A DNA stretch of 42,832 bases from a virus: positions 1 through 42,832 of IMG/VR virus record IMGVR_UViG_3300018080_000051; one strand, written 5' to 3'. Made by a program: the position numbers and the translations under genes. Shown in pieces: positions 15,672 through 37,858 of the stretch; positions within the stretch are counted from its first letter, which is position 1; the number at the start of each line of letters is the position of its first letter. The notes under the pieces are model-generated. The model saw nothing but the letters and a program-made list of their open reading frames with translations. It ran no database searches and was not told the origin of the DNA.

Positions 15672-15679
15672 GGTAAAAT

Positions 15680-16637: not shown

Positions 16638-17039
16638 ATGTGGATAACAACTCTAATGGGAGTTCTCTTCCCAATTATATCAAAGGTAATGGATAAATTT
16701 ATTCCAGACGCCAATGATAAATTAGCAGCAAAGAAAGAGCTTATGTACCTGGCCGAGGAGATGGTCGGACATAAAAAAGATATTATTTTAGCTGAAGCCA
16801 AGTCTGAACGGTGGTTTCAAGCCTTATGGAGACCTATCGTTGGATGGTCATTCTCTATGATGGCTATATTTATGATTCTTTTTAGCTCAATCATCAAACC
16901 AATCTTTCATTTCTTGACAGGAATTGATTTACCAGAGTTAATTATATCATCAGAGCTTTGGTATGCAGTATTTTTCTGCTTAGGAGGCTACATGAGTCTT
17001 AGAACTATCGAAAAAGTCGTAAAATGGTTAAAATTATAA
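16638..17039 (+). CDS. holin, GTA/3TM-type
   Basis: This 133-residue protein has an N-terminal hydrophobic segment (ITTLMGVLFPII), a charged linker, and the family-typical EAKSERWFQALWRPIVGW block near residues 54-71. Two strong TM segments follow (SFSMMAIFMILFSSII and LWYAVFFCLGGYMSL). This matches the 3TM holins associated with gene-transfer-agent and phage release. It would permeabilise the inner membrane at lysis. No endolysin gene is adjacent. Its TAA overlaps the ATG of the thioredoxin-like gene (TAATG), coupling lysis and redox genes. Confidence 0.8.
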   Translation: MWITTLMGVLFPIISKVMDKFIPDANDKLAAKKELMYLAEEMVGHKKDIILAEAKSERWFQALWRPIVGWSFSMMAIFMILFSSIIKPIFHFLTGIDLPELIISSELWYAVFFCLGGYMSLRTIEKVVKWLKL

Positions 17040-17788
17040 TGAGTATAGCAAGAATTAAGAAATATTTAAAAATGGGAGCCTCAGGGGCACTATTACTTGG
17101 ATTTATTTCATTAAGTATCTACCAAGGATGTACTAAGAGAGCGTCTGAATACCAACCACCAAGGATTGAGCATAAGGTAGTAGAAAAAAAGACAAAGAAG
17201 CTAGATAAATGTAAAAGAGCTCGAAGTTTAAGACAACAACTCAAAGATAAAAAGAATCCAGCAGTAAAAAAAGACGTAAAGAAGGAAGTAAAACCTGAAA
17301 TAGATGAAACAAAACCAAGATCTAGTTTTATAAGACGTAGAAAAAGATATTTTAGGGAGATATCTAAAGAAACATGGTTATATCCAACAGATAATCATAG
17401 CAGAAGCTATACCAGACCTAAAGGGGCTGGAACTAAGTTAGGATATATTGAAATGGCTAATTGGGAATCATATGACAGAGATACCATAGATAAATTAGAA
17501 GACACAGCCTATGTAGTCCATTTCACAGCTAAATGGTGTATGATTTGCCAAATGCAGCATAAATATCTTCATAATGAAGAAGTAGATAAATTTGCAGATG
17601 AGCATAAGGTTCGTCTCTTTACTGCTGATATGACAGATTATAGTGAAGAGTTAAATAAAGCATTAAAAGATTATGATAGGGCAGGTATACCTGTTTATGT
17701 ATTTGTAGATAAGAAAGGTAAAGAATTAATTATTGATCAGATTTGGTCTACAGAGGAAACCTTACAGCACCTAGAGAATTTAAAATGA
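17039..17788 (+). CDS. membrane-anchored thioredoxin-like protein (cDsbD-like)
   Basis: This 249-residue protein has an N-terminal signal anchor (SGALLLGFISLSIYQGC, about 15-31), where Cys31 is a possible but imperfect lipobox cysteine. A long basic linker (40-110) leads to a thioredoxin-fold domain (about 140-249). The active site is WCMIC (166-170), the strand VVHFTA precedes it, and the cis-proline region GIPVYVFVD (217-225) follows. This domain matches the C-terminal domain of DsbD (thioredoxin-like, accepting electrons from the membrane domain). The start at 17039 overlaps the holin stop; an earlier ATG lies inside the holin gene. The membrane part of a DsbD-like protein is encoded 20 kb away at 37145. 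Its likely role is periplasmic disulfide reduction. Confidence 0.82.
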   Translation: MSIARIKKYLKMGASGALLLGFISLSIYQGCTKRASEYQPPRIEHKVVEKKTKKLDKCKRARSLRQQLKDKKNPAVKKDVKKEVKPEIDETKPRSSFIRRRKRYFREISKETWLYPTDNHSRSYTRPKGAGTKLGYIEMANWESYDRDTIDKLEDTAYVVHFTAKWCMICQMQHKYLHNEEVDKFADEHKVRLFTADMTDYSEELNKALKDYDRAGIPVYVFVDKKGKELIIDQIWSTEETLQHLENLK

Positions 17789-18312
17789 AACCAAGAGATA
17801 ACCCTGGTTTAGTATCCGTATGGGATAAAGCTAAGAATGACTATCTAGAAGGAAATTATGAATCTCTTCATGGTTTAGCAAAGAAGTGGGAAGTCAATTA
17901 TAATACTCTATGTGATAGAGTATATAAGGGAATAAAAATAGATAAGGCGTGGAGAGATGAGAAAAAAGCGATTGAAGAAGAAGTTAAGACGCACGCTGTC
18001 GAGGTGGCTAAGAAGAAATTGGCTACTACGTATTCTAAGACTTCTGGGATGATGGATGATCTTTTAGATCGTATTAAGATTGGAATAGAAAGCGGAGTAT
18101 TCTCAATAAAAGAATTCCCGGATCTATATGCCAAGCTAGGCACAGCCCTTAAGAATGTACATTCAACATTAAGACTAGAGACAGGAAAGTCTACTCAGAA
18201 TATTGAAGTAAAGAAAAATAAAGAGAATCTAGAAGACGCTCTTACTAATTTAAAAAATAAAGGTTTGATAGACTTAGATACATTAGAAAATATTGAGATT
18301 ATAGAAGATTAA
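17785..18312 (+). CDS. terS: terminase small subunit
   Basis: This 175-residue protein contains an N-terminal HTH-like region (YESLHGLAKKWEVNYNTLCDRV, residues 26-47). A helical oligomerisation part and an acidic tail (IDLDTLENIEIIED) follow. It starts at 17785 in an ATGA overlap with the thioredoxin gene and lies three bases before the large terminase. By position and architecture it recognises the phage packaging site. Confidence 0.75.
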   Translation: MKPRDNPGLVSVWDKAKNDYLEGNYESLHGLAKKWEVNYNTLCDRVYKGIKIDKAWRDEKKAIEEEVKTHAVEVAKKKLATTYSKTSGMMDDLLDRIKIGIESGVFSIKEFPDLYAKLGTALKNVHSTLRLETGKSTQNIEVKKNKENLEDALTNLKNKGLIDLDTLENIEIIED

Positions 18313-18315
18313 TCT

Positions 18316-19794
18316 ATGAAATTAAATAAAAGCCAAGTAGAATCCCTACTAAAATACAATGCAATCGTAACTGACGTATTTGAAGGTTGGGAACCATTTG
18401 AATATCAAAGAAAGGTTTTTGAAGATTTATTTATTCTTAATAAGAAGTATGTATTCTGCAATTGGCCACGCAAGAGTGGAAAAAGTGAGGTAGCAGCTAG
18501 ATTTCTAATTTTAAAAGCATTAATGATCAATCATAGTACATTATATTATGTATGTGAGACTAGAGAAAATGCAGAACAAGTTATTTGGTCACGACTACAA
18601 CAAATGATTCCAGCTAAATATCTACAACAAGGTGGTTTCAGAGAATCCACTAAAGAAGTGAGATTTAATAATGGATCTATAATAAAGTTATACGGATCTA
18701 ACTCCAACAAGGATGCATTGATTGGAACTAGCCCAGACTCATTAGTATATGATGAATATCGTACACATAAGTCTACTTTCCACGATGTTATGATGCCGAA
18801 TGTATTTAAAAAACATTGTCAAATATTGATAATTAGTACTCCACCAGATGTTTTAGATGTAGATCAATATAATATGTATAAGGCCATGGAGGATTACTGC
18901 AAAGAAGATCCAACTAAGAGAGCCTACACAACTATGGATTGTTGGCACGGTAATCCACAGCAACAGGAGTTCTACAAAGAATTAGAAGGTTATTATACCA
19001 GTGTCAATAGATATAATGAATTTAGACGAGAGTGTCTATGTGAATATGTTAAAGGAACAGTAAAGAGTATGTTTCCAGAATTTCAATCAGATGATTTGAT
19101 TCCTCATTCAGATATCATGGATATGGTAAGAGATAATCGAGATGATTATATTTGGTGCGCATGTTTCGATACATCAGGATGGAAAAGATGGGGAGCATTA
19201 TTTGCAGCCATACATAAACGAGATAGTAAGGTTTATATATTAGATTCCATAGCTATAGAACCTGAAGCTAATACCTTTGAGGCAAGAGAACAAGCTGGAA
19301 TGTCAGCTAAAGCTTTATGGCCAACAGTAGAATATAAATTAAAGTGTCTCTATCCTAATAGTACCACATCTGATTGGGATATTCTTTGGGATCCAGCAGA
19401 TGTTATGATTATGGATGACGTAAAACGTATGTACGGAGAAGACATCACTATAGATACAGTTAATAAACGAACTATGGGTAAGTCTCAGTGTTTAAATCTC
19501 ATACGAGATATGAGAAGCATGAATAAACTTCTGATTAGTGATCGAGCAGCTGGATTAATTACAGAGTTTCAGGCTATGAAATTAAATCCTCAAACAGAAG
19601 CACCTGAGAAAAAGTATGATGAGTTGATAGATTGTTTAAGATATATTATATATGAGAATGAAGATTTATTTGACTTTAAAGATAAAATAGAAATTAAAGA
19701 ATTAAGTCCAGAAGCTAAATTTTTGCAGCAGGTAGATAGAACAAGAAATCAAGTCGATATCGATGAGGATATTGATCTAGGGGGATGGATATAA
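18316..19794 (+). CDS. terL: terminase large subunit (packaging ATPase/nuclease)
   Basis: This 492-residue protein has a Walker A-like PRKSGKSEVA (51-60) preceded by a Q-motif (FEYQRKVFED), Walker B DSLVYDEYR near 138-146, and a coupling STPPD motif after it. The C-terminal RNase H-like nuclease shows CFDTSGWKRW, WDPADVM and DELIDCLRYI, where the acidic residues bind metal. It drives DNA into the prohead and cuts it. Confidence 0.95.
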   Translation: MKLNKSQVESLLKYNAIVTDVFEGWEPFEYQRKVFEDLFILNKKYVFCNWPRKSGKSEVAARFLILKALMINHSTLYYVCETRENAEQVIWSRLQQMIPAKYLQQGGFRESTKEVRFNNGSIIKLYGSNSNKDALIGTSPDSLVYDEYRTHKSTFHDVMMPNVFKKHCQILIISTPPDVLDVDQYNMYKAMEDYCKEDPTKRAYTTMDCWHGNPQQQEFYKELEGYYTSVNRYNEFRRECLCEYVKGTVKSMFPEFQSDDLIPHSDIMDMVRDNRDDYIWCACFDTSGWKRWGALFAAIHKRDSKVYILDSIAIEPEANTFEAREQAGMSAKALWPTVEYKLKCLYPNSTTSDWDILWDPADVMIMDDVKRMYGEDITIDTVNKRTMGKSQCLNLIRDMRSMNKLLISDRAAGLITEFQAMKLNPQTEAPEKKYDELIDCLRYIIYENEDLFDFKDKIEIKELSPEAKFLQQVDRTRNQVDIDEDIDLGGWI

Positions 19795-20102
19795 TGTTAA
19801 CCGCAGTAATACTACTAACTATTTTAATTAATTTAGTTATAACAGGTTATGCTGTTTCTAAATATATTAAAGTTAAAATAGATATAGAAAGATTGTTAGA
19901 ACATAAAAAAGATATGATACAATCTCATAAAAGTTTAATAGAAGAAGTGACGAGCCTTAAGTACGCTCGATCACCACAGCAAGAAGCTATAGAGTCCTTA
20001 GAGTCTGTAGATAGTAAAGAAGTAATAAAAAAATTAAATGAGCAGGGAGTCTTTGATACCGTCATGAGCCCAGCATTTAATCTAGAGGATATGTATGAGT
20101 GA
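19794..20102 (+). CDS. single-TM coiled-coil protein between terminase and portal (102 aa)
   Basis: An N-terminal hydrophobic helix (MLTAVILLTILINLVITGYA) is followed by a helical, coiled-coil-like cytosolic part and an acidic end (SPAFNLEDMYE). The ATG at 19794 overlaps the terminase stop; an earlier in-frame ATG at 19785 is less likely. The role is unknown. Spanin-like or packaging accessory functions are both conceivable. Confidence 0.6.
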   Translation: MLTAVILLTILINLVITGYAVSKYIKVKIDIERLLEHKKDMIQSHKSLIEEVTSLKYARSPQQEAIESLESVDSKEVIKKLNEQGVFDTVMSPAFNLEDMYE

Positions 20103-22326
20103 TTTTGACGAGTTGAATCCATCAGATTATGTAAATAAGTCATTATATAGATTAGATCTTGATAGTGAATCATCGAAAGATGATATTCTCGGATTTATAA
20201 ATGCTCATTATAAACAATTAATGCAATCACCAAGAGATCTTAATAGATTATGTAATCAGAACGAAGATCTAGCATTCTATTCTGGATATGCATGTCCACT
20301 AGGCAATAAAAATGCCCTTATAGTAACAGAAACCGGAGCCACAAACTTAAATCGAAGAAAGAAATTTACTAAGATTGCATTAAATCATTTAAAAGATATT
20401 GTAGATAATTTAGTATCTCGATCTATTGTTAGAAAACCTAATTATACTGTATATCCTAAAAATGAATTTTTAATGAACGAAAAAGGTAAAGCTAGAACAG
20501 CTAAAAAGTTTTTAGCATCAAAATCTCAAGAAACAGATTTTGTATCTGTACATACACAGCATATTTTCCATACATATATGTTCGGAGAATCCTACCTAGA
20601 AGTTTTTTGGAATCCATATAAAGGACCTTTATTAGTAGATGATAAAAAATTACGAGATAAAGTACCATTGTTAGACTCGGATGGTAAGCCAACTAAAAAT
20701 AAAGATGGTAAAGTAATTCAATTAGATTCTAGACAGAAAATTGGTGACGTAGATATTAGATTAATAGATCCTAGAAGAATTATTACACCAAAAGAAAATT
20801 GTTTTGAAGACTGTGAATGGGTTATTATCTATGAGAATATTTCAGTAGATAAATTAAGACAACGATATCCAGATCAAGCAGCTGATATTAGTCCACATAA
20901 AGACTTAGAAATCTTTGACAGTGGATGTATGGAATATGTTAAAGATCCAAATTCTACTCTTCTATTTAAATTATATCATAGGGCTACACCAGAAATGCCG
21001 AAAGGAAGAGTTATATTAACCACACCCACGGCCATACTATTAAACGATGAGTATCCTCATGAAACTGTAATTGATCAGGATTTATTTCCTGTGATTCAAT
21101 TAAGATTAGAGGATTTACCAGATACAGAGAGAGGAGGTAAGTCTATTATCTCTATGGGTAAACACTTACAGTTAGCAATTAATAATTTGATCAACACCCA
21201 AGTTAGAAATGTCGCATTATTCCCACCCATTAGAGTATGGGAAGAAGGATCTGTTGACAAAGATAAATTAAGATTAGGTTCTCCTACAGACATTACTTAT
21301 AGAAAAAATAGAGCACCACCAAAAGTATTGACTACTGAGTCTGTATCCCAACCAACAATTTTATTAATTAATATGTTGACAGAACGTTTGATGCAGTTAT
21401 CAAATGTTTTGCCAATATCTCGTGGAGAGACAATACCCAATACTGAATCTAGATTAATGTTGGATTTCTTTAAAGATCAAGAATTAGCTCAGTCTCTACC
21501 GATGGACGAAAAGGTTAAGATTAGTTTGATTAGTATAGCTAAATTATGGATAGCTATTGCTGCAGATGAATACAAGGATTCCGAAAAGAAAAAGAGAATG
21601 ATAAAGTACTTTGGAGAAAGAAATTCATTAGTACAATCTGATTTAAATATAAAAGATTTAAAAATTCCTTTTGATATTAATATAGAAATTCTAAATACTT
21701 TCGCAGATACATTTCAAGGAAAAGTTCAACAGATAACACAGTTATTGCAAATTGTTCCTAATGCACTTACTCCAGCTAAGATTTTAGATATTTTAGAGTT
21801 AGGTAATCCGGATGAATTATTAGATTCAGCAACGGCTGCAGTAGATTTAGCAGAGAAAGAAATTAATGAACTCTTAGAAGGGAAAGAAGTCCCACCACCT
21901 CAAAGGTATGTAGACTTAGTTCCTTACTATGAGCAATACTTTAGAGCACTACAGAAATCAGAAATTAGAAGTATTCTTCCTGATTTATATGATCCATCTA
22001 GAGATTCAGAACTCTTAAAAGGAAATGAGCAAATAGCTCAACGACTACTAGATCAAGTAGCCGCCATAGAATTAATGATATCTGAAGCTATAGAGAATAT
22101 GGAAGCTCAAGGCATTTTAAATGAAATAGGTAAATCTCCATTACGATTAGAGGTAATGACTAGATTTCCCACATTCCCTACAGTATTAAAAACTGATTCT
22201 GTAGAAACCGTAGATCCTTTTGATATAGAGGATAATGTTATCCCTAATCAACCATCCCAACAGTTACCACTTGAGGGACCCGTCCTAGATAATGAAGGAA
22301 CGCCACCAGGCAATCCCATTACCTAA
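20095..22326 (+). CDS. portal protein (P22-like size)
   Basis: This 743-residue acidic/helical protein sits directly after terminase. It has the length of P22-type portals (about 725 aa). It contains a wing/stem pattern with KLWIAIAADEY, a Pro-rich block before the long C-terminal helices, and a polar tail (NQPSQQLPLEGP...) that could form the barrel. The ATG overlaps the preceding stop. It forms the dodecameric vertex ring through which DNA passes and to which the adaptor binds. Confidence 0.88.
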   Translation: MSDFDELNPSDYVNKSLYRLDLDSESSKDDILGFINAHYKQLMQSPRDLNRLCNQNEDLAFYSGYACPLGNKNALIVTETGATNLNRRKKFTKIALNHLKDIVDNLVSRSIVRKPNYTVYPKNEFLMNEKGKARTAKKFLASKSQETDFVSVHTQHIFHTYMFGESYLEVFWNPYKGPLLVDDKKLRDKVPLLDSDGKPTKNKDGKVIQLDSRQKIGDVDIRLIDPRRIITPKENCFEDCEWVIIYENISVDKLRQRYPDQAADISPHKDLEIFDSGCMEYVKDPNSTLLFKLYHRATPEMPKGRVILTTPTAILLNDEYPHETVIDQDLFPVIQLRLEDLPDTERGGKSIISMGKHLQLAINNLINTQVRNVALFPPIRVWEEGSVDKDKLRLGSPTDITYRKNRAPPKVLTTESVSQPTILLINMLTERLMQLSNVLPISRGETIPNTESRLMLDFFKDQELAQSLPMDEKVKISLISIAKLWIAIAADEYKDSEKKKRMIKYFGERNSLVQSDLNIKDLKIPFDINIEILNTFADTFQGKVQQITQLLQIVPNALTPAKILDILELGNPDELLDSATAAVDLAEKEINELLEGKEVPPPQRYVDLVPYYEQYFRALQKSEIRSILPDLYDPSRDSELLKGNEQIAQRLLDQVAAIELMISEAIENMEAQGILNEIGKSPLRLEVMTRFPTFPTVLKTDSVETVDPFDIEDNVIPNQPSQQLPLEGPVLDNEGTPPGNPIT

Positions 22327-22352
22327 TAAACGTAAGATATAAAGAGGTATAA

Positions 22353-23588
22353 ATGGAAGATAATAATGAGCTCTCAATCGAAGCAGCCCTAAATGATATT
22401 TTAGAATCAGATAGTGTAGATGCATCATTAGGCAATAAAGAAGCAGAATCTGTAATCCCTGTTGAGGATAAAGAAGAAGTTAAAGAAGAAGTTAAAGAAG
22501 AAGTTAAAGAAGAAGTTAAAGAAGAAGTTAAAGAAGAAGTTGCAGAAGAATCTACAGACGAAGTTGTAGAAGATAAAGAAGAAGTTGTAGAAGATAAAGA
22601 AGTTGAAGAAGAGAAAGAAGAATCTGAGGTCAAACATTTTACAGCTAAATTTAACGGAGAAGATATTGAAATCCCAATAGATGCAAAGATCGATATTTCA
22701 ACTAAAGCTGGTAAGAAGGCCGAAGTTACTATAGACGAATTAAAAAGTGATTTTTGGGGAAAACAAGAAATAAGTAGAAGATTAAATGAAGTAGAGACTC
22801 TTAAGAAAGAATCTAAAGAAGCTTTACAGTTTCATGATAATCTTATAAAAAGATCTGAGTCTCTTAAAGGACATGAAAAGATTTCTCAGATTTTAACAGA
22901 CCTATCCCATGCCAATCCTAAATTAGGTGAAGACATGAAAGATTTCGTAGTTCGACTCTACGAGGAAGGCATCAACCTCAGCCGTATGGATGAAAAAGAA
23001 CAAAGAGCTTTTTTACTTGAAAAGGAAAATAAATCTCTCAAGTCAGTTCAAGAATCCCAAGTTCAAATGGATGAGCAAAAACAAGTTGCCGAATATATAC
23101 AAGTCGAGACAGATAAGTTAAAAGAGAAATTCCACCTAGACGATGAGTCTTGGACAGGTGCTCTAGAAGATTTATCTAAAGAGGGCAAGATCTTAGAAGA
23201 TACCCCCGTTTCAGATGCTTTTAAAATAGTAGAAGAGCATTTACAGCAAGGAGTTGTATTTAAACAACTCAACACCGTTCTAGATGTTCTAGAAGAAATA
23301 GATCCCGAGTTAGCCAAACGAGATGATGCAGTTATGGACCTTTATGCAATCCTCACCCATCGACCCGATATGGACTTGAAAGATCTGAAAATCAAGGCTG
23401 GTAATTTATTTGGTACAGAGCAGATAAAAGCCGCTAATGAAAAACAAAAACAAAAAGAAAAAATAACAGGAATTAAATCAAATAAAAATAATCCTGGAAA
23501 AGAATCATTTAAAAAGACCAGTGCTCATAGCAATGATCCCGTAGCTGATTTTTTCTCTTCAGGTGAAGATAGACCACCAGGATTATAA
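22353..23588 (+). CDS. scaffolding protein
   Basis: This 411-residue, very acidic, coiled-coil-rich protein lies between portal and coat. The N-terminal part holds a Glu/Val/Lys repeat (six KEEV units, about residues 40-63) and further Glu-rich repeats. Long amphipathic helices follow (about 130-290), then a basic C-terminal end (KQKQKEKITGIKSNKNN) that would dock to the coat protein. These traits and position are those of scaffolding proteins. Confidence 0.8.
   Translation: MEDNNELSIEAALNDILESDSVDASLGNKEAESVIPVEDKEEVKEEVKEEVKEEVKEEVKEEVAEESTDEVVEDKEEVVEDKEVEEEKEESEVKHFTAKFNGEDIEIPIDAKIDISTKAGKKAEVTIDELKSDFWGKQEISRRLNEVETLKKESKEALQFHDNLIKRSESLKGHEKISQILTDLSHANPKLGEDMKDFVVRLYEEGINLSRMDEKEQRAFLLEKENKSLKSVQESQVQMDEQKQVAEYIQVETDKLKEKFHLDDESWTGALEDLSKEGKILEDTPVSDAFKIVEEHLQQGVVFKQLNTVLDVLEEIDPELAKRDDAVMDLYAILTHRPDMDLKDLKIKAGNLFGTEQIKAANEKQKQKEKITGIKSNKNNPGKESFKKTSAHSNDPVADFFSSGEDRPPGL
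22470..22541 (+). repeat. six tandem 12-bp repeats in the scaffold gene
   Basis: The unit AAAGAAGAAGTT is repeated six times without change and encodes (K-E-E-V)6. A perfect short repeat of this kind is prone to length variation by slippage, always in frame because the unit is 12 bp. Confidence 0.9.
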
Positions 23589-23603
23589 AAAGGAGTTTAA
23601 ACA

Positions 23604-24827
23604 ATGGCTGATGAATTTATTAGCATTGCTAACACAATTATGAGTGATATCTATAAGACTAAGTATTTAGATCTTATGGCTGCACCTATTAATCGTAGAC
23701 GTCCATTAAAAAGTATGGTACGACACGATACTAAAGCTACAGGTAATGTGCAAGCACACGGAGCCCTCTTCTCAGATGTAGGTGGCTTTAGTTCAGGTAG
23801 TTTTGGAGACGCAGGCTCATATAAAGCAAAACAAACAAACTACACATTAAAGAATCAATACTTCCGTGCTCGAGTTGACCGTAAGTCAATTATGCTTTCG
23901 AAAGATCCAACAGGAGCTTTTAAAGAGCAATTGAATATGGCTATGGCTGGTGGTAAGGAAACTATTGATAGAAACTTAGAGCGTATGTTAGTCCAAGGTG
24001 ACGGAACAGGAGCTTTAGGTACTATTGATACTGGTGGAGTTACTGATAATGGAGATGGTACTTTTGACTTAGTTATTAGTGCTGCAACTTGGGTACGAAA
24101 TAACTTTCGTATTGAAGATCTATTAAACGTTTCTACTAATGCTTCTGTATATGAAGTTGTATCGGTTGCTAGAGGTACCCGTACTGTAGTTATTAAAAGA
24201 ATTTCTGGATCAGATACTCCAGCAGCAGCTGAGATCGTTTACAGACAGAAATCTAAAGATGCGGAAATGCAAGGATTACGTGGAGTAGTTAAAGCTTCTT
24301 CTGGTAGTCTTTATGGTATTACCGTTGGAGATGGCTGGCAGTCACAACATTTAAATGCAGCAAGTAAACCTTTAACTGAAGGTATGATTGTTGAAATGCT
24401 TTATAGCATTCAAGATGAATGTGGTGAGTTCCCTGATACAATGATTGTATCACATACTCAACGTAAGAAATTAGCTGAACTTGCTAGAGACAAAGCACTA
24501 CATATTGTAGATCGTGAAGTCAAGAAAGGTGAAGTTTTGATTGGTGTCTTTCCACACATTGTGGTAGAAGGTGTAGAAATCAAAATTATTGCTTCTCAAG
24601 ATATGGTAGCAAGTGAAGTATTCTTTGTTAACATGGCTAAAGTAAGTCTACGAACAGCAGGTAAAGGAGAATTTATCGCTGGTACTGATGGCATCCTACA
24701 TTATGAAGGAGCAGCCCTAGGTAATGACGTATATTCTATTTTATGGGCACAATATGGAGAAATCTTTATACACCCTGCTTTCCATGGTGAAATTAATAGT
24801 TTAAGTACAACAGTAGAAGTTAGCTAA
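23604..24827 (+). CDS. major capsid protein (HK97-like fold)
   Basis: This 407-residue protein follows the scaffold, with AAGGAG upstream. The N-terminal region contains a Gly/Ser-rich loop (FSDVGGFSSGSFGDAGS), and a beta-hairpin region follows (TWVRNNFRIEDLL...). The later ADxxxVSHTQRKKL-like segment (IVSHTQRKKLAELA) and IKIIASQDMVASEVFFVN match the P-domain strand-helix order of HK97-type coat proteins. Codon use is smoother and GC slightly higher than neighbours, as expected for a very highly expressed gene. Confidence 0.88.
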   Translation: MADEFISIANTIMSDIYKTKYLDLMAAPINRRRPLKSMVRHDTKATGNVQAHGALFSDVGGFSSGSFGDAGSYKAKQTNYTLKNQYFRARVDRKSIMLSKDPTGAFKEQLNMAMAGGKETIDRNLERMLVQGDGTGALGTIDTGGVTDNGDGTFDLVISAATWVRNNFRIEDLLNVSTNASVYEVVSVARGTRTVVIKRISGSDTPAAAEIVYRQKSKDAEMQGLRGVVKASSGSLYGITVGDGWQSQHLNAASKPLTEGMIVEMLYSIQDECGEFPDTMIVSHTQRKKLAELARDKALHIVDREVKKGEVLIGVFPHIVVEGVEIKIIASQDMVASEVFFVNMAKVSLRTAGKGEFIAGTDGILHYEGAALGNDVYSILWAQYGEIFIHPAFHGEINSLSTTVEVS

Positions 24828-24840
24828 CTAGGAGAAAAGA

Positions 24841-25209: not shown

Positions 25210-25222
25210 GGAGAAATATATT

Positions 25223-26053: not shown

Positions 26054-26060
26054 AACCTTT

Positions 26061-26090
26061 GAGAGGGGTATTTTACCCCTCTCATTTTTT
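26061..26090 (+). terminator. strong intrinsic terminator after the head operon
   Basis: A perfect 10-bp stem GAGAGGGGTA/TACCCCTCTC with a TTT loop is followed by ATTTTTT. It would stop or reduce transcription between head and tail genes. Confidence 0.95.
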
Positions 26091-26108
26091 AATTAAAAGG
26101 AAAAAATA

Positions 26109-26420: not shown

Positions 26421-26428
26421 GTATCAGC

Positions 26429-27406: not shown

Positions 27407-27421
27407 TAAAAGGAAAATAAT

Positions 27422-28375: not shown

Positions 28376-28376
28376 T

Positions 28377-28700: not shown

Positions 28701-29657
28701 ATGAGACGTTTAGAATTATTATTAGATCATGTTAGAAGGGCTGTGGAGAATGAGAATCCTAGCACTACTGATGGATTTTCGAATTTAGAAATTATTCAAT
28801 ATTTTAATGATGCTCAAGATCATTTATTTTCTAAGATTGTTTTAGAACATCCTAATGTCTTTCTCAAAGAAGGATTTATATCTTTAGTAGTTGATCAAGA
28901 AAGTTATGATCTGCCAACTGATATGTATATGGGAACTAAGATTAAAAGTTTAGAATATAAATATGGATCTGGATCAGATGATTATTATAAAATTGGTCAA
29001 AAGACAATCCATGATAGACAAACTGATTTTACAGGAGAAGTTCCTCACTTCTATATCAGAAAAGGCGATGATATATTAATCAATCCAATCCCGTCAGTTG
29101 CAAACACTAATGGCCTTAGATTAATTTACCAAAGACAAATACGAACATTAGATGTAAGAAGAGGAACTATTACTTCTGCATCAAAGACTAGTGAGACATT
29201 AAATTCTATTACATTAGATCTTACTCCAACGTTAAGTAAAGATGATGATTCTGTTCAAGCAGCAGCAGATTTATTAAATACACTAGATTATATATGTGTA
29301 GTAGATAAAGACGGAGCCACAGTAGTTGATTCTATTCCAGTTAAGTCATATGACTCTACAACTGGAGTTATTACTCCAGATGTATTTACGACATCAGTAG
29401 CAGCAGGCTCCTTTGCCGATCAATATGTCGTAGCTGGTAAATTATCTACTACTCACTGTGAATTACCTAGACTATGTGAAAGATATCTTTTAACATATGC
29501 TACATTTAAATTATTAAGAAGAAATGCTAATGAGATGGAATCAACATTCCAAAGGCAGGAACTCGCAGCCATAGAAGCTACAATAGTTGATTCATTTAAA
29601 ACGGCAGATGATGATGTTTATAATATTCCATTAGATGAGATTTGGACTGATGAGTAA
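28701..29657 (+). CDS. head-tail adaptor (T7 gp11/P22 gp4-like)
   Basis: This 318-residue protein starts RRLELLLDHVRRAVENEN. It has the adaptor signature of helices followed by ADQDHLFSKI-like residues (FNDAQDHLFSKI), DQESYDLPTDMY, and the beta insert (GTKIKSLEYKYG). A second half (TLDYICVVDKDGATVV) and a final helical part (LPRLCERYLLTYATFKLLRR) complete it. This order is typical of adaptors that fix the nozzle to the portal in short-tailed phages. It overlaps the next gene (ATGAGTAA). Confidence 0.75.
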   Translation: MRRLELLLDHVRRAVENENPSTTDGFSNLEIIQYFNDAQDHLFSKIVLEHPNVFLKEGFISLVVDQESYDLPTDMYMGTKIKSLEYKYGSGSDDYYKIGQKTIHDRQTDFTGEVPHFYIRKGDDILINPIPSVANTNGLRLIYQRQIRTLDVRRGTITSASKTSETLNSITLDLTPTLSKDDDSVQAAADLLNTLDYICVVDKDGATVVDSIPVKSYDSTTGVITPDVFTTSVAAGSFADQYVVAGKLSTTHCELPRLCERYLLTYATFKLLRRNANEMESTFQRQELAAIEATIVDSFKTADDDVYNIPLDEIWTDE

Positions 29658-30393
29658 TCCAATTAACAATAACAATTTACTTAATGATCATATTATTATT
29701 AAATATGAAGATGGTCTTAAAGGTACAATTAATACATCTACTGATACTACTAAGAATACTATATCTTTAGGGAAATCAGTTACTATGAGTATCACCGATA
29801 ATGCTTTAAATGCTATTAAGTTAGTAGATGCATCAGTGACTAATACTAAATTAGAAAATTCTTCTATTACTATCAATACTTCTGGCACTTTATCCGGAGG
29901 ATCTGAAGTGAGTTTAGGAGATTCTATAACATTGGAAGGAACTACTAAAGTCTTACAAATGATTTCAAGTACCAATACTTCTATGACTACACACACTACT
30001 GCTACACCTGCTCTAGATGATACAATTCCTCAAATCACAGAAGGGGATGAATTTCAAACATTATCAATTACACCTAAATCTGCATCTAGTACTTTATACA
30101 TATCTGTCACCGTCCCATTTTCTACTACTGCTGCTGGAACTACTATCATATCATTATTTCAAGATTCAACAGCAGATGCACTAGCAGCAAAAGCAGTAAC
30201 AGGAACATCCGGTTGGCTAGATTCAATTACCTTTCAACATGTAGTTGCATCAGAAAATATATTAAAACGAACTTATAAACTTCGTATTGGTACACAGACC
30301 GGTACAACAACTACTATCAATGGCGCAGTTAGTGCAAGAAAATTGGGTGGAGTAGTGGCATCAACAATTATTATTACTGAGGTAGAAGCTTAA
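29650..30393 (+). CDS. receptor-binding/fibre protein 3, paralogue of 27422 C-terminus
   Basis: This 247-residue protein has an N-terminal linking part (SNPINNNNLLNDHIIIKYED, ITDNALNAIKLVDASVTN). Its C-terminal head domain of about 120 residues shares TIPQ(N/I)TEG, LFQDSTADALAA and VEEVEV/ITEVEA with the fibre at 27422. The start is the ATG overlapping the adaptor stop; the frame upstream lies inside that gene. Two related heads with different stems may give two host-binding tips. Confidence 0.68.
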   Translation: MSNPINNNNLLNDHIIIKYEDGLKGTINTSTDTTKNTISLGKSVTMSITDNALNAIKLVDASVTNTKLENSSITINTSGTLSGGSEVSLGDSITLEGTTKVLQMISSTNTSMTTHTTATPALDDTIPQITEGDEFQTLSITPKSASSTLYISVTVPFSTTAAGTTIISLFQDSTADALAAKAVTGTSGWLDSITFQHVVASENILKRTYKLRIGTQTGTTTTINGAVSARKLGGVVASTIIITEVEA

Positions 30394-32888
30394 TGCCAAA
30401 TCAATCAAAAACATATCTTGGAAAAGCTTTTGGCTTAGAGCAGAACTCTCTGATTCAAAGTCCAAATACTGCCTATGCAGATGATTGTTTAAATGTGCAA
30501 TTAAGAAAGGATACAGGTCTCGAGAAGCGAAAAGGCTTTCAAACTAAGATAGATAATAATGGAGGTTATGGCCTCGTTGAGTATTCCTATATTAATTCTG
30601 ATAATACAGTAACAACTGAGAAGTTAGTTATAGATGAATCTCTCTATAAAATAGAGGAAGGAACATTTAGCATAGCATATACAGGCTCTCAACCTCATGC
30701 CTCAATTCGTATATTAAACACCAGTGGAGAATTAAAGCTACAACTCATAGAGAATGCAGTTACCGTACTAGACCAGGCCCTAGGTAAAGGGTATGAAGAG
30801 GCAAGCATTGAAACATTGGCAGCTACTAAGACAGCTGTAGATGCCATTACTGGCTTTGCTGTTACTATCACTGGAGACACAACAGTTTCATCTGCTTTTT
30901 TAGATGTTACTCCTTTGATCAATGTTTCATCTGGTAAAAGTTTAGATATTAAATTTCTTTATTTAACAGAAGTTAATAAAACAATTACATCTCCTTTAGA
31001 TAATTTATCTAGTATAAAAGGAACAACAAATTTAAAAAATGTAAAAGCTATTAATCATAATAATTTATTAATCCTAACTGATGGTGGCTTTCCAAAAATT
31101 TATGATGGTCAAACTGTATATAAGGCTGGTCTTCCGAAACCCACAATTATTAGTATTACGAGTTCAGTTGGATCTTTAAGTGATGATTATGTTTATTATA
31201 TGACTTATGAATTTACTGATGCACGAGGTAAAAGAACAGAGAGTGCAATCTCAGATGCAGTATCGATCACATTAGCCACTCAACAAGCAAATCTTACTAT
31301 ACCGACTCTTGAAAAGACGTCAGGTTATAATACTAATTGTGCAGTTGCTAATGGTACTCAATCTGTAGCTTCATCTAGTGGGACAGTAACATTAACAGTC
31401 AATGATGGCATAGCAGGACCTCACACATTAAAAGCAGGCGACACGGCCCTATTGCACAATAGAGCAACTGGTGTAGATACTGTAAAGACGTATGATGTAC
31501 AATCTGTTACTGCTACAACTATCGTTTTAGTTTCTGATGAGACTATAGATGTAACAGATAAAGATCCAATTAGTAATAATTTAAAAATTAATATTTATCG
31601 AGAGGATGGAGTTTCAACGACCAAGACACTAGTTTATGAAATTCCTAATAATTCTTTTGTAGCTTCGTTATCGATCACTGATAATGATACTGATACAACA
31701 GATAATGCAGTTTTTACTGAATATCTGAAAACACAGGCAGCTCCCCCTAAAGCTGATTTCTGTGCATCCTATAAAGGAAATCTAGTATTAGCCAAAGGAC
31801 AAACTATATATTTTTCCGATGAAGTGAATAACGGTTTTATAACATCGAGCCTATCATTTCCATCCTCTCACTTTTTACTTTTTAAAGATGTAGTAACAGC
31901 TATCGAAACATCTATCGATACATTATTAGTCTTTGGAGAAAAATCAATACATGGTGTAGAAGGGAGAACATTAGATACTGATATTGTCAATAAGTTTCTT
32001 ATTACTAATCATATCGGCTGTGCCTCAGCAGATTCTATTGTATCCGTTGGAAAGATATTATACTTCTTAACGGATACTGGAGTATACGCTGCATCTGGAA
32101 ATACGTTATTATCAACTGATATTGGAATCCCATCACCAATATCTAAGTTTATTACAAATACTATTAGAAGTTTAGATAGTCAATTAAATATAAAAAGAGC
32201 AGTTGGAGTTAATGACATTAAAAATAATAGAGTATTGATGTTCATCCCATCTGAAATTACAGCAAATACAGATTTTTCAGATACTGGATCTATAACATTA
32301 GTTCATGATTATGAAAATAATCAATGGTTTATTTGGAAGAATGTTAATATGGCCGGTGGAGCTATATTAGATAGTAATAAAGATTTATATTGGAGTGAGA
32401 GAAAGGCAGGAGCAACTCAAAGTATTCGCACACATCGTAGTCTTGATCTAAGAACAACAGATGATTATTGGGACCACACCACAGCCATATCGTCTTTCTA
32501 TGAGTTTAAATGGGATTCATTAGATACTCAGTCTTTAACAACGTATAAGAAGCCATTAAACCTTAAGCTGTATTCTATAAGAAGAACAGATGAAGATTTA
32601 TTACATAATCCAACATTAACAATTACAACCTATAAAGATTATATACCTTCACTCTTACATAGTGCAACAGATTTTACTCTGAGTACAAAAGGTGAGAATT
32701 ATCCTCATAGATGGAATCAAAAACCATTTGGTAATTGGAGAGAAGGATATACAAAAACTAGATTCAATTCTGATGTTATTGAATCATTAAAAATAAAAGT
32801 AGAAAATAATACTGGAGGGGTTAATTTTAATCTATCTGGTTTAGAAATAGAGTGGGCTGATCCCTACGATAATCAATTAAAAACATAA
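30393..32888 (+). CDS. tail nozzle / tail tubular protein B-like
   Basis: This 831-residue protein has the beta-rich architecture of T7 gp12/P22 gp10-type nozzle proteins. It opens with DDCLNVQLRKDTGLEKRKGF. FADEVNNG- and GxxS-type strands and an Ig-like insert (about 250-470) lie in the middle. The hallmark C-terminal pattern (NRVLMFIPSE...DYENNQWFIW...DLYWSER) is followed by a DPYDN end. It follows the adaptor and fibre genes. Confidence 0.72.
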   Translation: MPNQSKTYLGKAFGLEQNSLIQSPNTAYADDCLNVQLRKDTGLEKRKGFQTKIDNNGGYGLVEYSYINSDNTVTTEKLVIDESLYKIEEGTFSIAYTGSQPHASIRILNTSGELKLQLIENAVTVLDQALGKGYEEASIETLAATKTAVDAITGFAVTITGDTTVSSAFLDVTPLINVSSGKSLDIKFLYLTEVNKTITSPLDNLSSIKGTTNLKNVKAINHNNLLILTDGGFPKIYDGQTVYKAGLPKPTIISITSSVGSLSDDYVYYMTYEFTDARGKRTESAISDAVSITLATQQANLTIPTLEKTSGYNTNCAVANGTQSVASSSGTVTLTVNDGIAGPHTLKAGDTALLHNRATGVDTVKTYDVQSVTATTIVLVSDETIDVTDKDPISNNLKINIYREDGVSTTKTLVYEIPNNSFVASLSITDNDTDTTDNAVFTEYLKTQAAPPKADFCASYKGNLVLAKGQTIYFSDEVNNGFITSSLSFPSSHFLLFKDVVTAIETSIDTLLVFGEKSIHGVEGRTLDTDIVNKFLITNHIGCASADSIVSVGKILYFLTDTGVYAASGNTLLSTDIGIPSPISKFITNTIRSLDSQLNIKRAVGVNDIKNNRVLMFIPSEITANTDFSDTGSITLVHDYENNQWFIWKNVNMAGGAILDSNKDLYWSERKAGATQSIRTHRSLDLRTTDDYWDHTTAISSFYEFKWDSLDTQSLTTYKKPLNLKLYSIRRTDEDLLHNPTLTITTYKDYIPSLLHSATDFTLSTKGENYPHRWNQKPFGNWREGYTKTRFNSDVIESLKIKVENNTGGVNFNLSGLEIEWADPYDNQLKT

Positions 32889-32904
32889 GGCAAAGAAGAG
32901 AAAG

Positions 32905-33792
32905 ATGTCATTTATTAATAATATAGCAGCTCAAGCATTTAATGAAATATCTCAGAAAGGTCCCGGATTCGGTGGTCTACAAAGAAATGCTCCAGGTATA
33001 ACAGGTTTAAGTTTTTTAGGTAGAAATCTACCTTTATTGGAATTTGGTCAGGACCAAAAAATAGAAGGACAACTATTAAGCGCAAGCCAAAATGCTGGAC
33101 TAGGTCAAGGAGGAGGGGGAGGATTAAATCTTGGAGCACCAAGGGATATTGTCTTCGGTAGTATACAAGATAAATTAAATCAAGCCAGACAACAAAGAGG
33201 TCAAGAGTTTCAACAAGGAGCCTTAGGTCGTATAGACCCGAATGCATTTTCTGGTGATACATTATTTGCTTCAGACAGATTAAAAGATCTGGCTTTAGGT
33301 ATGGATAGTCAACAACTCCAAGCCTTACGATCCAGAGGCCAAGAGGGAATTCAACAAAATTTTCTATCATCACTTAGAGATTTAAGAGCTTTAAACAGTG
33401 ATAGATCTGTTCCTTCTGAGTTAGCTGCTTCTAGAAAAGCAGATTTATTAAGAGATAGATTAAGAGCTTCTAAAGACCTTGAGCAAGGTATGATTATAGA
33501 TGATTTAAATCGACGACAATCAGTACTCTCTCAATTAGATACACTAACTAGTGGGGCTGCATCAAGACGTCAGAGTGCTCAACAGGCAAATGCAGCATTA
33601 GAATTACAAGAAAGATTAAATAGATTAGGTAATCCTGAATTGGCAGCAACATTATTAGCTGATATAGAAAAAACAAACGCAGCGAATAGAGCAGCTATAC
33701 TTGCACAAAATTTACAGGCTCAGCAAGCCCAACAACAATTAGCTTCTCAAAACAGACAAGCTGATTTAGATAGATTAATAGAATTACTATAA
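32905..33792 (+). CDS. Gln-rich internal virion protein (295 aa)
   Basis: This 295-residue protein is Gln/Ala/Leu-rich. Its N-terminus is Gly-rich (QNAGLGQGGGGGLNLGA), and long amphipathic helices and coiled coil follow (QARQQRGQEFQQ, QANAALELQERLNRL). Placed between nozzle and ejection-type proteins, it probably belongs to the internal core that is injected with DNA. Confidence 0.6.
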   Translation: MSFINNIAAQAFNEISQKGPGFGGLQRNAPGITGLSFLGRNLPLLEFGQDQKIEGQLLSASQNAGLGQGGGGGLNLGAPRDIVFGSIQDKLNQARQQRGQEFQQGALGRIDPNAFSGDTLFASDRLKDLALGMDSQQLQALRSRGQEGIQQNFLSSLRDLRALNSDRSVPSELAASRKADLLRDRLRASKDLEQGMIIDDLNRRQSVLSQLDTLTSGAASRRQSAQQANAALELQERLNRLGNPELAATLLADIEKTNAANRAAILAQNLQAQQAQQQLASQNRQADLDRLIELL

Positions 33793-33801
33793 GGAGATGA
33801 T

Positions 33802-34815
33802 ATGATTAACCCAGGAAGTTCCACTCCTTTTGATAATAAGCTCAATAAGGTAGGACCTAAACAAAGACAACAATTTGATAATACATTAGAAGATTTCAAA
33901 TTATTAGCTTTACAGCAATTAGCTAGTGCTCAGGAACCAGAACCTGTACCAGTTACTCCAAGCTTATTAGATTTATTACAAAATCCATTACAAGCTGAAG
34001 AACCATCTCCATTACAGAATTTAAGAGTACCTGAAGCCCCAATCCAAGAACCAGTAGTACAAGATGAAGTTCAAAGTCCCTTAGTACAGCCAGTTGACCC
34101 AGTTGCTCCAGCTGAATCTATTCCAGAAGTACCACAAGCAGAAATACCAACCCCAGCCCCGATTGTAGAACCAGAGCAACCAATCAATATTAAAGAAGTA
34201 GATAATTTAAGAAAATTATTAAAATTACAATCTGATAGAAGGAAAGATACTAGAGAAGAAGCAGAATTAAATCCTTTTCAACTATTTGAACCCACTGAAT
34301 CTAGAGCAGGAGCTTTAGATGATTTGCAAAGACGGGATCTAGCTAAAAAGGAAGCAGCTTTTTTAGAAGCTGATGCTTTAATTGATGATTCTATTCGTTT
34401 TATTAAAGAGAAAGGTATCCCTTTAACTTCTTACAGTCCAGAAGGCGTAGAAGCAAGGCAATTGCAATCCTCACTTTTGAACATTGAACGACAAGCTCAA
34501 GGAGCTGGTGCGAACTTTACTGAGAAAGAAATGGAAATTATTACTGATATTATTGGTACCTTATCAGGAGTCAAGGCTAAATTCCTCGGCCCTGAAGTAG
34601 CTGTAGAGAATATGGAAAGATTTAGAAAGCTTCTTACTCGTAGAGTATCAACCAAAATGGTTCAACAAGGTTTCTCTCCTAAAAGAGTACAAATTGAAGG
34701 ACCAGATGGATCTGTATTAGAAGTAGATACTATCGAAGCATTAAGATTACAACAAATCGCTAAAGACCCTGAAAAATGGGATCGATTTATAGAAAGTTTA
34801 CAAGAGGGTGAGTAA
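33802..34815 (+). CDS. Pro/Glu-rich internal virion protein (337 aa)
   Basis: Residues about 45-130 are low-complexity Pro/Glu/Val (e.g. EPVVQDEVQSPLVQPVDPV), followed by a helical C-terminal domain (KEKGIPLTSYSPEGVEARQL... FLGPEVAVENMERFRKLL). The last half resembles the family that folds into ejection-tunnel helical bundles, but this is only suggested by position. It overlaps the next gene by one base. Confidence 0.6.
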   Translation: MINPGSSTPFDNKLNKVGPKQRQQFDNTLEDFKLLALQQLASAQEPEPVPVTPSLLDLLQNPLQAEEPSPLQNLRVPEAPIQEPVVQDEVQSPLVQPVDPVAPAESIPEVPQAEIPTPAPIVEPEQPINIKEVDNLRKLLKLQSDRRKDTREEAELNPFQLFEPTESRAGALDDLQRRDLAKKEAAFLEADALIDDSIRFIKEKGIPLTSYSPEGVEARQLQSSLLNIERQAQGAGANFTEKEMEIITDIIGTLSGVKAKFLGPEVAVENMERFRKLLTRRVSTKMVQQGFSPKRVQIEGPDGSVLEVDTIEALRLQQIAKDPEKWDRFIESLQEGE

Positions 34816-36689
34816 TGGCCAAATTTGGTAATGTTAAATTAGTTAAGAAGGGAGGATCAACTCAAGAGGTTGAACCAAAAACTTCGGCAAAACTCATTCG
34901 TCCAAAGGGCCCTATTAGGGGTACTTTAGAAACGAGTGGTGGAGGACCTAGTCAAGGTGAGTTATTCACAAAGGCAGCTATAAGTGGTTTACTTGGCCCT
35001 GTAGCATCTGAAATCCTTGACCTGAGGGGTGGTAGCTCTGTAGCTAGAAATCCGTTAGAAGCCTTTAGAAGAGGTATATCACAAGGTCAAAGTGTTGGTT
35101 TTTCTGATGAATTGGCTGGAGGGGTTGATTTTGCGTCTAAAGCTTTAACAGGACAGACTGATCCATTATCTCCACTTGATGAGCTAGCCTCAGCCATAGA
35201 AGGTAGAAGGCAGGCATTTGATCAAACATCAGCAGATTTCCCTGTTGCTAGTACAGCAGGTGAGATTGGAGGGGCAGTCAGCATTCCTATTGGAGGACCA
35301 GCTAAAGCCTTAGGATTTGGAGCTAAGATAGGACGAGGAGCTAAAATAGGGGGTACATTAGGGGCATTATTCGGAGCAGGTAAATCCAGAGGGAGTCTTT
35401 TAGAAGGAGATATTGGAGAAGTTGCTGCCGATACAGCAATCGGAGGAGCCCTAGGAGGAACACTTGGAGCAGCTGCACCAACAATCTTAGGAGGATTAGC
35501 TAGAGGTGGTAGAAAATTAATTACTCCATCACGAACATTGCATGAATTAGCCACTGGTGGTAAGGGGACTGCACCTTCTAAATTATTTGAGAAAGCTACT
35601 GGAGCTAAACAATCACAATTTGTTGATGCTATCGATACAGCAAGTAAACATAAAATTTTAAAGTTAGAACAATTTGGATTTAGATCCCCGTCAGTAGAAA
35701 AAGGAAAGGGGGCTATCACTAAACAAGTTGATAAATTTAAAGACTTCTTCTTAAGTGGTCCAAGACCTGAATTTGATGCGATGAGGGCGGATACTCATGG
35801 TACTATCTCTAAACTAAGTAATAATATTGATGATATTGTTCTTAGAGCTTCAAAATCAAAAGGAACCATCTATAAACTAGATGATGTATTTGGAAAAGAT
35901 GCACCAAAACAAATTGAAAGAGCTATCTCAAATGCTAAGTTGAACCCAGCCACTAGTAAGGTTGCTCAAGAATTAGATAGTTTTATTGATACAGAAGCCT
36001 ACGGAAAATTATTAAAAGGTAACGCATCTGCACATGATGTTCTCCAAGTTAAAAGAATGTTAAGTAGAGTTATTGGTAATTTTGATGATGCTACTCCAGG
36101 ATCTATGAAAGATAAGTTACAAAGTATATTCTTTAGATCTCGAGATATTGTTAATAAAGAAGTAAGTTTTGGCTTACCTAAAGAATTTGATAAGTTTCAG
36201 ACATTGAATAAAGATACATCGAATCTATTAACACTTCAGAAAGTTTTAAGATCTGGACAGGCTAAGGCTGGTAGCATAGAAGCTGGAGGAGAATTATTTA
36301 GAGGTGATGTTGTCGGATCTGCTGCAGAGGTAGTACCAGGACTTGTGGGACTGGGGACGAGATCAGGTGCTGGTAAATTGATTGGTAGAGCATTAAGTAT
36401 ACCTATCAGAGGCACAGCCCTAGCAGCTGACAAGACAATTGGTGATCCAAAATTCCTTGGTTGGGTATCTGGAGTTTTACCGTCATATAATAGTGAGACT
36501 AATACAGTAACTAAAACATCAGATAAGGAAATGTATTCACATTTTATTGATGGCAAAGAAGGAATTACTTTAAAGAAAAAAGCTAAACTCAAAACTCAAT
36601 TACATACATCCGGTAAGATAGATCCCGATATAATCCCAAAAGATGTACGAGCTAAAGCTTTAGAGAAATTAACTAAGGAAGGTTTATAA
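34815..36689 (+). CDS. DNA ejection/internal protein with glycine-zipper region (624 aa)
   Basis: Residues about 140-230 are rich in Gly/Ala with small-xxx-small patterns (GEIGGAVSIPIGGPAKALGFGAKIG, then ALGGTLGAAAPTIL), typical of membrane-penetrating ejection proteins. The rest is helical. A C-terminal segment (GLVGLGTRSGAGKLIG) is again Gly-rich. It follows the internal-protein cluster. Likely role: forming a conduit across the host envelope. Confidence 0.62.
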   Translation: MAKFGNVKLVKKGGSTQEVEPKTSAKLIRPKGPIRGTLETSGGGPSQGELFTKAAISGLLGPVASEILDLRGGSSVARNPLEAFRRGISQGQSVGFSDELAGGVDFASKALTGQTDPLSPLDELASAIEGRRQAFDQTSADFPVASTAGEIGGAVSIPIGGPAKALGFGAKIGRGAKIGGTLGALFGAGKSRGSLLEGDIGEVAADTAIGGALGGTLGAAAPTILGGLARGGRKLITPSRTLHELATGGKGTAPSKLFEKATGAKQSQFVDAIDTASKHKILKLEQFGFRSPSVEKGKGAITKQVDKFKDFFLSGPRPEFDAMRADTHGTISKLSNNIDDIVLRASKSKGTIYKLDDVFGKDAPKQIERAISNAKLNPATSKVAQELDSFIDTEAYGKLLKGNASAHDVLQVKRMLSRVIGNFDDATPGSMKDKLQSIFFRSRDIVNKEVSFGLPKEFDKFQTLNKDTSNLLTLQKVLRSGQAKAGSIEAGGELFRGDVVGSAAEVVPGLVGLGTRSGAGKLIGRALSIPIRGTALAADKTIGDPKFLGWVSGVLPSYNSETNTVTKTSDKEMYSHFIDGKEGITLKKKAKLKTQLHTSGKIDPDIIPKDVRAKALEKLTKEGL

Positions 36690-36838
36690 TGTTATTAATA
36701 ATGATAATCTTCGGATTAATATCTGTAGCTTTATATTATTATAAGACTAATCCTCATTTAGCTCATACTGTATCTGCTAAATTAATTGAGTGGAAGAACA
36801 AGATATGTTCTAAACTATTAAAATGGTTGGGAGATTAA
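36689..36838 (+). CDS. single-TM microprotein (49 aa)
   Basis: ATG overlaps the upstream TAA (TAATG). MLLIMIIFGLISVALYYYKT is followed by an amphipathic basic tail (AKLIEWKNKICSKLLKWLGD). One hydrophobic helix and an interfacial C-terminal helix. The next gene begins one base after its stop. It belongs to the membrane-gene cluster that includes the DsbD-like gene. Confidence 0.55.
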   Translation: MLLIMIIFGLISVALYYYKTNPHLAHTVSAKLIEWKNKICSKLLKWLGD

Positions 36839-36839
36839 T

Positions 36840-37142
36840 ATGTTTGGTTTAAATAATCTCCCTTTATGTTTACCCTGTGGAATTGATGATCCTACCATAT
36901 TAATCTTTGTTGGTAGTATTTTGGTATCTCTATTGATTAAAGAGGCTGTGGTCTTCTGGATTAAATCCTTTAAGAAAGATCCTTGTGCGGTTGCAGCAGC
37001 AAAAACAAAGATTATATTAGAAAAATTAAAAGAACATGAAGATCTCAAGCTCTCATTGTTGATAGAATTAAAAGATGTATCCCACAGCCAGTTGAATATA
37101 TGTAAGATTCTAGAGCGGATCTTACAAAAGATTGATAAGTAG
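36840..37142 (+). CDS. membrane protein with N-terminal CxxC and coiled-coil tail (100 aa)
   Basis: This 100-residue protein has a short N-terminal segment with CLPCG (about residues 10-14), then a TM helix (ILIFVGSILVSLLIKEAVVFW), and a helical cytosolic tail (KTKIILEKLKEHEDLKLSLL...). The CxxC would lie on the outside if the tail is cytosolic. It is two bases before the DsbD-like gene and so may be a partner or substrate of it. A phage-type class II holin-like topology is an alternative. Confidence 0.6.
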   Translation: MFGLNNLPLCLPCGIDDPTILIFVGSILVSLLIKEAVVFWIKSFKKDPCAVAAAKTKIILEKLKEHEDLKLSLLIELKDVSHSQLNICKILERILQKIDK

Positions 37143-37144
37143 TT

Positions 37145-37858
37145 ATGCCGTCATTATTCTATATTCTATTCTCCGCCTTCGTGGGGGGATTAATCCTTAA
37201 TATCATGCCCTGTGTATTACCAGTCATTACATTGAAGCTAATGAGCTTTATGAAATTGGCGAATAATAAACGTAAAGATATCATTAAGCATGGAGTGGTT
37301 TACTCTGCTGGAGTGGTACTGAGTTTCGTTGCTTTGGCTGCGTTGATATTATTAATAAGCTATGGAGGGGGTTTCGCTTCTTGGGGGTTCCAATTCCAGA
37401 GTGCCTGGTTCTGTGGGGGTATGGCAGCGTTTATGATCCTTCTGGGGCTTCATACCATGGGGGTTGGTAGTACCCTACTGCTCAAGCTTAAGATGCGACT
37501 GAAGCTTACTAAGAGCCTTGGAGGCTATGTTGCCACAAAGCTCGCTAATATGTCTAAGGTCCTCCCTCTCTGCAACAGCTTCTTACAGGGAGTATTTACT
37601 ACTTTAATCGGTTCGGCCTGCTGTGGCCCTTTTCTAGGCTATGCTATCGGTATCAGTTTCCTCCTTGCTTGGCCTATTACTCTATGTGTATTTGCCTTAA
37701 TTGGTCTGGGTATGTCCTTTCCTTATCTAGTAGTATCCTGTTTTCCTAAGCTTATGAAGTGGATACCTAAGCCAGGTAAATGGCTTAAGTGGGTAAAGTA
37801 TATAATGGGTGGTATAATGATACTTACGTCAAGCTGGTTTATATGGATATTAATATAA
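37145..37858 (+). CDS. DsbD/ScsB-type transmembrane thiol electron carrier
   Basis: This 237-residue polytopic membrane protein has about six to eight hydrophobic segments. The two signature cysteines are present. Cys23 lies in NIMPCVLPVITLKLMSF, the Pro-Cys-Val-(L/F)-Pro motif of the DsbD/ScsB membrane domain; Cys159/160 lies in GSACCGPFLGYAIG, equivalent to the second active Cys before Gly-Pro/Ala-Pro-Phe. Between them runs GVVYSAGVVLSFVALAALIL, as in the family. The N-terminal and C-terminal soluble domains of full DsbD are absent; a thioredoxin-like domain is supplied by the gene at 17039. The family moves electrons from cytoplasmic thioredoxin across the inner membrane to periplasmic thiols. 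Overlaps the next gene by 16 bp. GC is higher than in neighbours, consistent with acquisition from a host. Confidence 0.9.
   Translation: MPSLFYILFSAFVGGLILNIMPCVLPVITLKLMSFMKLANNKRKDIIKHGVVYSAGVVLSFVALAALILLISYGGGFASWGFQFQSAWFCGGMAAFMILLGLHTMGVGSTLLLKLKMRLKLTKSLGGYVATKLANMSKVLPLCNSFLQGVFTTLIGSACCGPFLGYAIGISFLLAWPITLCVFALIGLGMSFPYLVVSCFPKLMKWIPKPGKWLKWVKYIMGGIMILTSSWFIWILI

Follow-up and report, generated by a model that had tools for sequence, protein, structure and literature searches.

Can a phage supply its own pathway for carrying reducing power across the inner membrane? The question was raised by a 42,832-nucleotide stretch of viral DNA (IMG/VR record IMGVR_UViG_3300018080_000051; hereafter the window), in which the original prediction, made from the letters alone, had seen a thiol-reducing pathway of the DsbD type split between two genes, one for the membrane domain (P0002) and one for a membrane-anchored thioredoxin-like domain (P0001). 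In the open-licence literature that we searched, a trans-membrane system for reducing power was previously not known from phages, and no paper on a phage-encoded DsbD, or on DsbD as an auxiliary metabolic gene, was found. Our analysis makes it likely that this phage encodes a two-protein thiol-reducing relay, with the layout of CcdA-ResA/Etrx and consisting of DsbD-type domains, with no alpha domain among them.

The window is very probably a complete phage genome

The ends of the window carry an exact 123-bp direct repeat (positions 1-123 equal 42710-42832), so the window is very probably the complete genome, of about 42.7 kb, of a tailed phage. We recognised a terminase, a portal protein, a PolA-type polymerase with a separate exonuclease, a primase-like protein and RusA, together with genes for tail or virion proteins. 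The major capsid protein and the tail protein at 28701 gave no profile match and were assigned provisionally, by position and by the gene order common to relatives. This phage gene content and the end repeat bear out the original claim that the genome is that of a phage. Elsewhere in the genome we noted a sigma-factor-like protein (42200-42805, minus strand; phrog_1740, E = 7e-6), a SLOG/LDcluster4 family protein (3884-4504, minus strand; Pfam, E = 1.3e-9) and a virion protein (38426-39592) whose relatives include cyanophage structural proteins and, at 39% identity, a protein of the uncultured 485-kb phage LR745208.

A stand-alone DsbD-type membrane domain

37145-37858, plus strand: P0002, DsbD beta-type six-helix membrane protein of 237 amino acids (Pfam DsbD_TM, DsbD profile, conserved residues, topology)

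A DsbD/ScsB membrane domain had been proposed here from the motifs MPCVLP and SACCGPF, and Pfam DsbD_TM (PF02683) indeed matched residues 6-233 with E = 8.9e-12, exceeding the curated cut-off. Two signature cysteines had been named, Cys23 in the first motif and Cys159/160 in the second. Alignment with cellular DsbD/ScsB proteins placed Cys23 and Cys159 on the invariant catalytic columns and left Cys160 as an extra residue. Thirty columns are conserved to 95% or more in 80 cellular membrane domains; P0002 retains 28 of them, although it carries the majority residue at only 39% of positions overall.

The topology of P0002 is predicted as six helices with both ends outside, and the AlphaFold model of the protein alone has a six-helix core at a mean pLDDT of 88. 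DsbD has eight helices; P0002 shows six predicted helices in its 237 amino acids and has neither an alpha nor a gamma domain. Among the NCBIfam models, those for DsbD and TsoB matched and that for CcdA did not, while the sequence profile A10 matched the solved CcdA structure 5vkv (E = 8.8e-6). Foldseek with the P0002 model, run without a positive control, gave no match in the PDB or in the viral collection BFVD.

An anchored DsbD gamma-type thioredoxin

16638-17039, plus strand: three-helix holin (GTA_holin_3TM; Pfam PF11351, E = 2.8e-12; phrog_3427 lysis/holin, E = 3.7e-22)
17039-17788, plus strand: P0001, membrane-anchored DsbD gamma-type thioredoxin (DsbD profile, Foldseek, predicted fold)

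The P0001 reading frame opens at 17024 (17024-17788, 254 amino acids) and contains an ATG at 17039. The latter start, which the original prediction had used, is plausible because this ATG overlaps the stop codon of the holin gene as TAATG. The protein consists of an N-terminal hydrophobic anchor, a linker of about 100 mostly charged residues and a thioredoxin domain, whose active site is marked by WCMIC and a cis-proline at P223 (P218 if translation starts at 17039). That a separate, anchored thioredoxin-like domain with these signs lies at 17039 was corroborated by both profile and fold. The NCBI DsbD profile aligned to P0001 at gamma-domain positions 455-552 (E = 4.6e-8), the thioredoxin part was predicted at a pLDDT of about 95 with the protein modelled alone, and the best solved structures found by Foldseek were DsbD gamma domains. 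The branch of P0001 in the tree is very long.

On the same DsbD profile P0002 aligns to positions 170-379, so that between them the two phage proteins account for beta and gamma of a single known protein. Because the conserved columns and both catalytic cysteines are kept, P0002 and P0001 are, judged by their sequences, intact proteins and not decaying fragments. The pair is probably functional.

A DsbD reduced to beta and gamma

We compared the pair with the best 80 loci of a cellular genome scan, which are the top-scoring relatives and not a random sample. In all 79 relatives that could be parsed, one chain carries an N-terminal region, the membrane domain and then WCxxC. DsbD/ScsB proteins are thus single polypeptides in this set; the window instead has two reading frames, 20 kb apart. 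No DsbD alpha domain was found in the six frames of the window or of a second phage with the pair (described below), using a profile of 75 cellular N-terminal regions that recovered three held-out sequences with E = 1e-32 to 1e-50.

The description 'split DsbD' therefore needs qualifying. It holds in that beta and gamma lie on separate genes; there is no alpha domain, helices 7-8 are absent too, and the arrangement matches CcdA plus ResA/Etrx. By sequence the window has two features of a CcdA-ResA pair, a stand-alone six-helix PF02683 protein and a separate, anchored protein of predicted thioredoxin fold. The phage pair can be seen as DsbD cut down to beta and gamma and also split, a naturally minimised form of an electron carrier that has been studied in depth.

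The pair is rare and occurs in a second phage

A scan of viral contigs with the membrane-domain alignment found one true phage, G001 (IMGVR_UViG_3300035698_007257), and G001 was again the sole find when the thioredoxin alignment was used in a scan of its own. Alignments were needed, as searches of viral contigs with single sequences (P0002, P0001 or the terminase) gave no matches. Both scans depend on short motifs and would miss CcdA-type proteins as well as relatives whose motifs have changed. Several other matches were rejected. In INPHARED, two records filed as phages, MT837473 (L002) and CAKLQH020000008 (L008), proved to be bacterial chromosome fragments; MT837473 holds a fused DsbD together with mnmA/queH-like genes, and the record titled 'Acinetobacter phage MD-2021a' is chromosomal. 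The IMG/VR matches L010 and L011 were judged bacterial, the former carrying a fused DsbD beside a prophage.

G001 is a complete, distantly related phage of 38 kb with an exact 127-bp end repeat, and its core phage genes are 23-40% identical to those of the window. Its membrane protein (2441-3148) and exported thioredoxin (3177-3626) are encoded by separate but adjacent genes. The membrane protein keeps 24 of the same 30 cellular columns and has only three cysteines, two of them the catalytic ones; the thioredoxins of the window and G001 keep 8 and 10 of 10 conserved columns, respectively.

Further viral relatives were gathered with tail and capsid alignments. The membrane half was absent from all 63 related records besides G001, 35 of which are at least 30 kb by their listed lengths. 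The thioredoxin half was absent from the 32 of these records that were searched and from the fetched stretches of the rest; the profiles used on the fetched stretches include phage rows, and absences alone were used. Both halves are missing together from G002, G003 and G007, and here the absence is real because exact end repeats are present (96-144 bp across these three and G001). The original prediction had held that relatives keeping one half alone would count against it, and no such relative was seen among the records searched. The pair is thus rare among the phages examined. What is new here is a split pair that two phages have and that was seen neither in the other phages examined nor in the 79 cellular relatives.

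For each of the four phage domains, the first BLAST match within the fetched cellular set was from Chlamydiota. Chlamydiota as donor gained no support from the trees, which do not group the phage genes with them. A chlamydial host was likewise not supported, as 234 Chlamydiota genomes contained no relative of the phage tail protein in a search run without a positive control. Trees cannot separate an inherited from a separately gained pair in the window and G001 (p-AU 0.318 and 0.571).

Three tandem trypsin-like proteases lie at 39733-41569 (minus strand), two of which have an export or anchor signal at the N terminus. Such proteases are unusual in a phage; G001 has two, not far from its pair, and one is present in several relatives that are more distant. 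The original prediction had read a cysteine next to the active histidine of one of them (40949-41569, TAAHC) as a redox sign. This argument fell, since AHC is the usual motif of the trypsin fold and the cysteine says nothing in favour of a redox module; some relatives that lack the pair have related proteases too. An apparently strict link between pair and proteases in 33 records broke in the wider set.

Gene neighbourhood and candidate substrates

36701-36838, plus strand: short reading frame of about 45 amino acids with a hydrophobic N terminus (sequence reading)
36840-37142, plus strand: 100-amino-acid one-helix membrane protein with LCLPCG (reading frame, hydropathy and charge)
37843-38424, plus strand: putative permuted papain-like cysteine amidase (C92, YaeF/YiiX type; remote homology)

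The first of these frames opens a cluster of small proteins 5' of the P0002 gene. The P0002 gene itself starts 2 nt past the end of the one-helix CLPC protein gene, whose product has no Pfam match and whose LCLPCG end, the N terminus, is probably periplasmic. At its other side, the 3' end of the P0002 gene is overlapped by 16 nt by the ATG of the 37843-38424 gene. In a tblastn search the protein encoded there matched the amidase of Bacillus phage Goe8 (E = 8e-4), which is itself a Peptidase_C92 (E = 5e-7), and His39 and Cys151 are conserved. The C92 assignment runs via the Goe8 homologue and is remote because there is no direct Pfam match; on this sequence evidence we regard a C92 cysteine amidase as probable. 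No counterpart was recognised in G001 by an insensitive search that would miss the window's own amidase too.

With the holin beside P0001 and the putative amidase beside P0002, both halves adjoin genes with a plausible role in lysis or at the envelope. This context is suggestive of a lysis or envelope enzyme as the target of the relay. Further exported proteins with cysteines are encoded upstream of the holin:

13925-14194, plus strand: small exported protein with CDHC (sequence)
15408-15889, plus strand: two small exported Cys-containing proteins (15408-15671 with four Cys, 15680-15889 with three; sequence)

The first is a possible partner or substrate of the relay and the other two are possible substrates. 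Together with the CLPC protein at 36840-37142, they agree with the original count of at least four small exported cysteine proteins.

How the pair may work and what it may serve

In the proposed relay, host cytoplasmic thioredoxin would pass electrons onto Cys23/Cys159 of P0002, which would carry them through the inner membrane. The WCMIC site of P0001 would collect them and reduce a disulfide in the host envelope. We infer that P0002 and P0001 exchange electrons and that the flow has this direction. Several points count against this reading: the 20 kb between the genes in the window, the very long branch of P0001, the presence of the pair in only two phages, the empty Foldseek searches with P0002 and the lack of a recognised amidase counterpart in G001. 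More tentatively, the relay may serve to hold a phage envelope enzyme in its reduced state during late infection, the overlapping amidase (37843) being the first candidate. As candidate substrates we would place this amidase first, other phage-exported cysteine proteins second and host envelope proteins third. If the relay works, the virus would control redox conditions in the compartment where its own lysis and surface proteins act. It is a more doubtful proposition that certain phages use a trans-membrane reducing pathway of their own as a timed switch for lysis or envelope enzymes, bringing electrons from the host cytoplasm to the outside so that a cysteine-dependent phage enzyme, such as the overlapping amidase, is activated.

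Alternatively, the pair could be an auxiliary metabolic module without a phage substrate that aids the physiology of the infected host, for example by reducing apocytochrome c (as in CcdA/ResA or DsbD/CcmG) or repairing oxidised envelope proteins. We give this a real but minor chance. Cellular relatives of the relay do function in the maturation of cytochrome c and in defence against oxidative stress (PMC3884852, PMC3914529), and no dedicated phage substrate has been identified. The genes, however, adjoin a holin and a putative cysteine amidase rather than metabolic genes, and, among the window proteins scanned, we recognised nothing else with a respiratory or repair role.

Chlamydiota, the top BLAST match of all four domains within the fetched cellular set, have disulfide cross-linked envelopes, which would suit a relay that attacks the envelope, reducing host disulfides made by DsbA and so weakening the envelope or blocking superinfection. 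Neither the trees nor the tail-protein search in 234 Chlamydiota genomes, run without a positive control, points that way. Loss of DsbA in Acinetobacter does alter phage susceptibility, but via a capsule regulator (PMC10249906), and we consider such an attack unlikely.

It is similarly improbable that the halves are two unrelated acquisitions, with P0002 serving a host thioredoxin-like protein and P0001 a host DsbD. The 20 kb between the genes in the window would fit this reading, but the genes are adjacent in G001, relatives have both or neither where both were searched, and the halves come from one profile family.

An artefact, either a contig chimeric with bacterial DNA or decaying genes, is very improbable and largely refuted, for although two phage-collection records with DsbD turned out to be bacterial DNA, both genes here sit within runs of overlapping or abutting phage genes between exact 123-bp end repeats, their frames are intact with conserved residues kept, and an independent second phage carries the pair.

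Comparison with known systems

The membrane domain of DsbD receives electrons from cytoplasmic thioredoxin and hands them to the C-terminal thioredoxin domain, from which they reach the N-terminal domain (PMC3884852). The phage pair resembles DsbD/ScsB in the sequence family to which both domains belong, in having both catalytic motifs and in the gamma fold, but DsbD/ScsB joins alpha, beta and gamma in one chain, whereas the phage has two genes, six helices instead of eight and no alpha domain. Chlamydial DsbH, a periplasmic thioredoxin-fold reductase, is likewise a separate exported thioredoxin. Its structure (2ju5) is the sole PDB sequence match of P0001 and NCBIfam DsbH also matches, but far under the DsbH cut-off, and the fold match ranks behind DsbD gamma. 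In the SAR endolysin Lyz of phage P1, a disulfide on the catalytic cysteine controls a phage lysis enzyme (PMC3556154). As far as known no trans-membrane relay takes part there, while for the phage pair it is the link to lysis that is conjectural.

The closest layout is that of CcdA with ResA, StoA or Etrx, in which CcdA and separate thioredoxins achieve the same transfer without the N-terminal domain (PMC3884852; PMC3914529). There, too, two genes encode a six-helix membrane protein with a catalytic cysteine pair and no alpha domain and, as with P0001, a separate membrane-anchored extracytoplasmic thioredoxin. The pair described here differs in that both domains match DsbD profiles and in being phage-encoded, with its genes far apart in the window. 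By analogy, it most likely works like CcdA-ResA.
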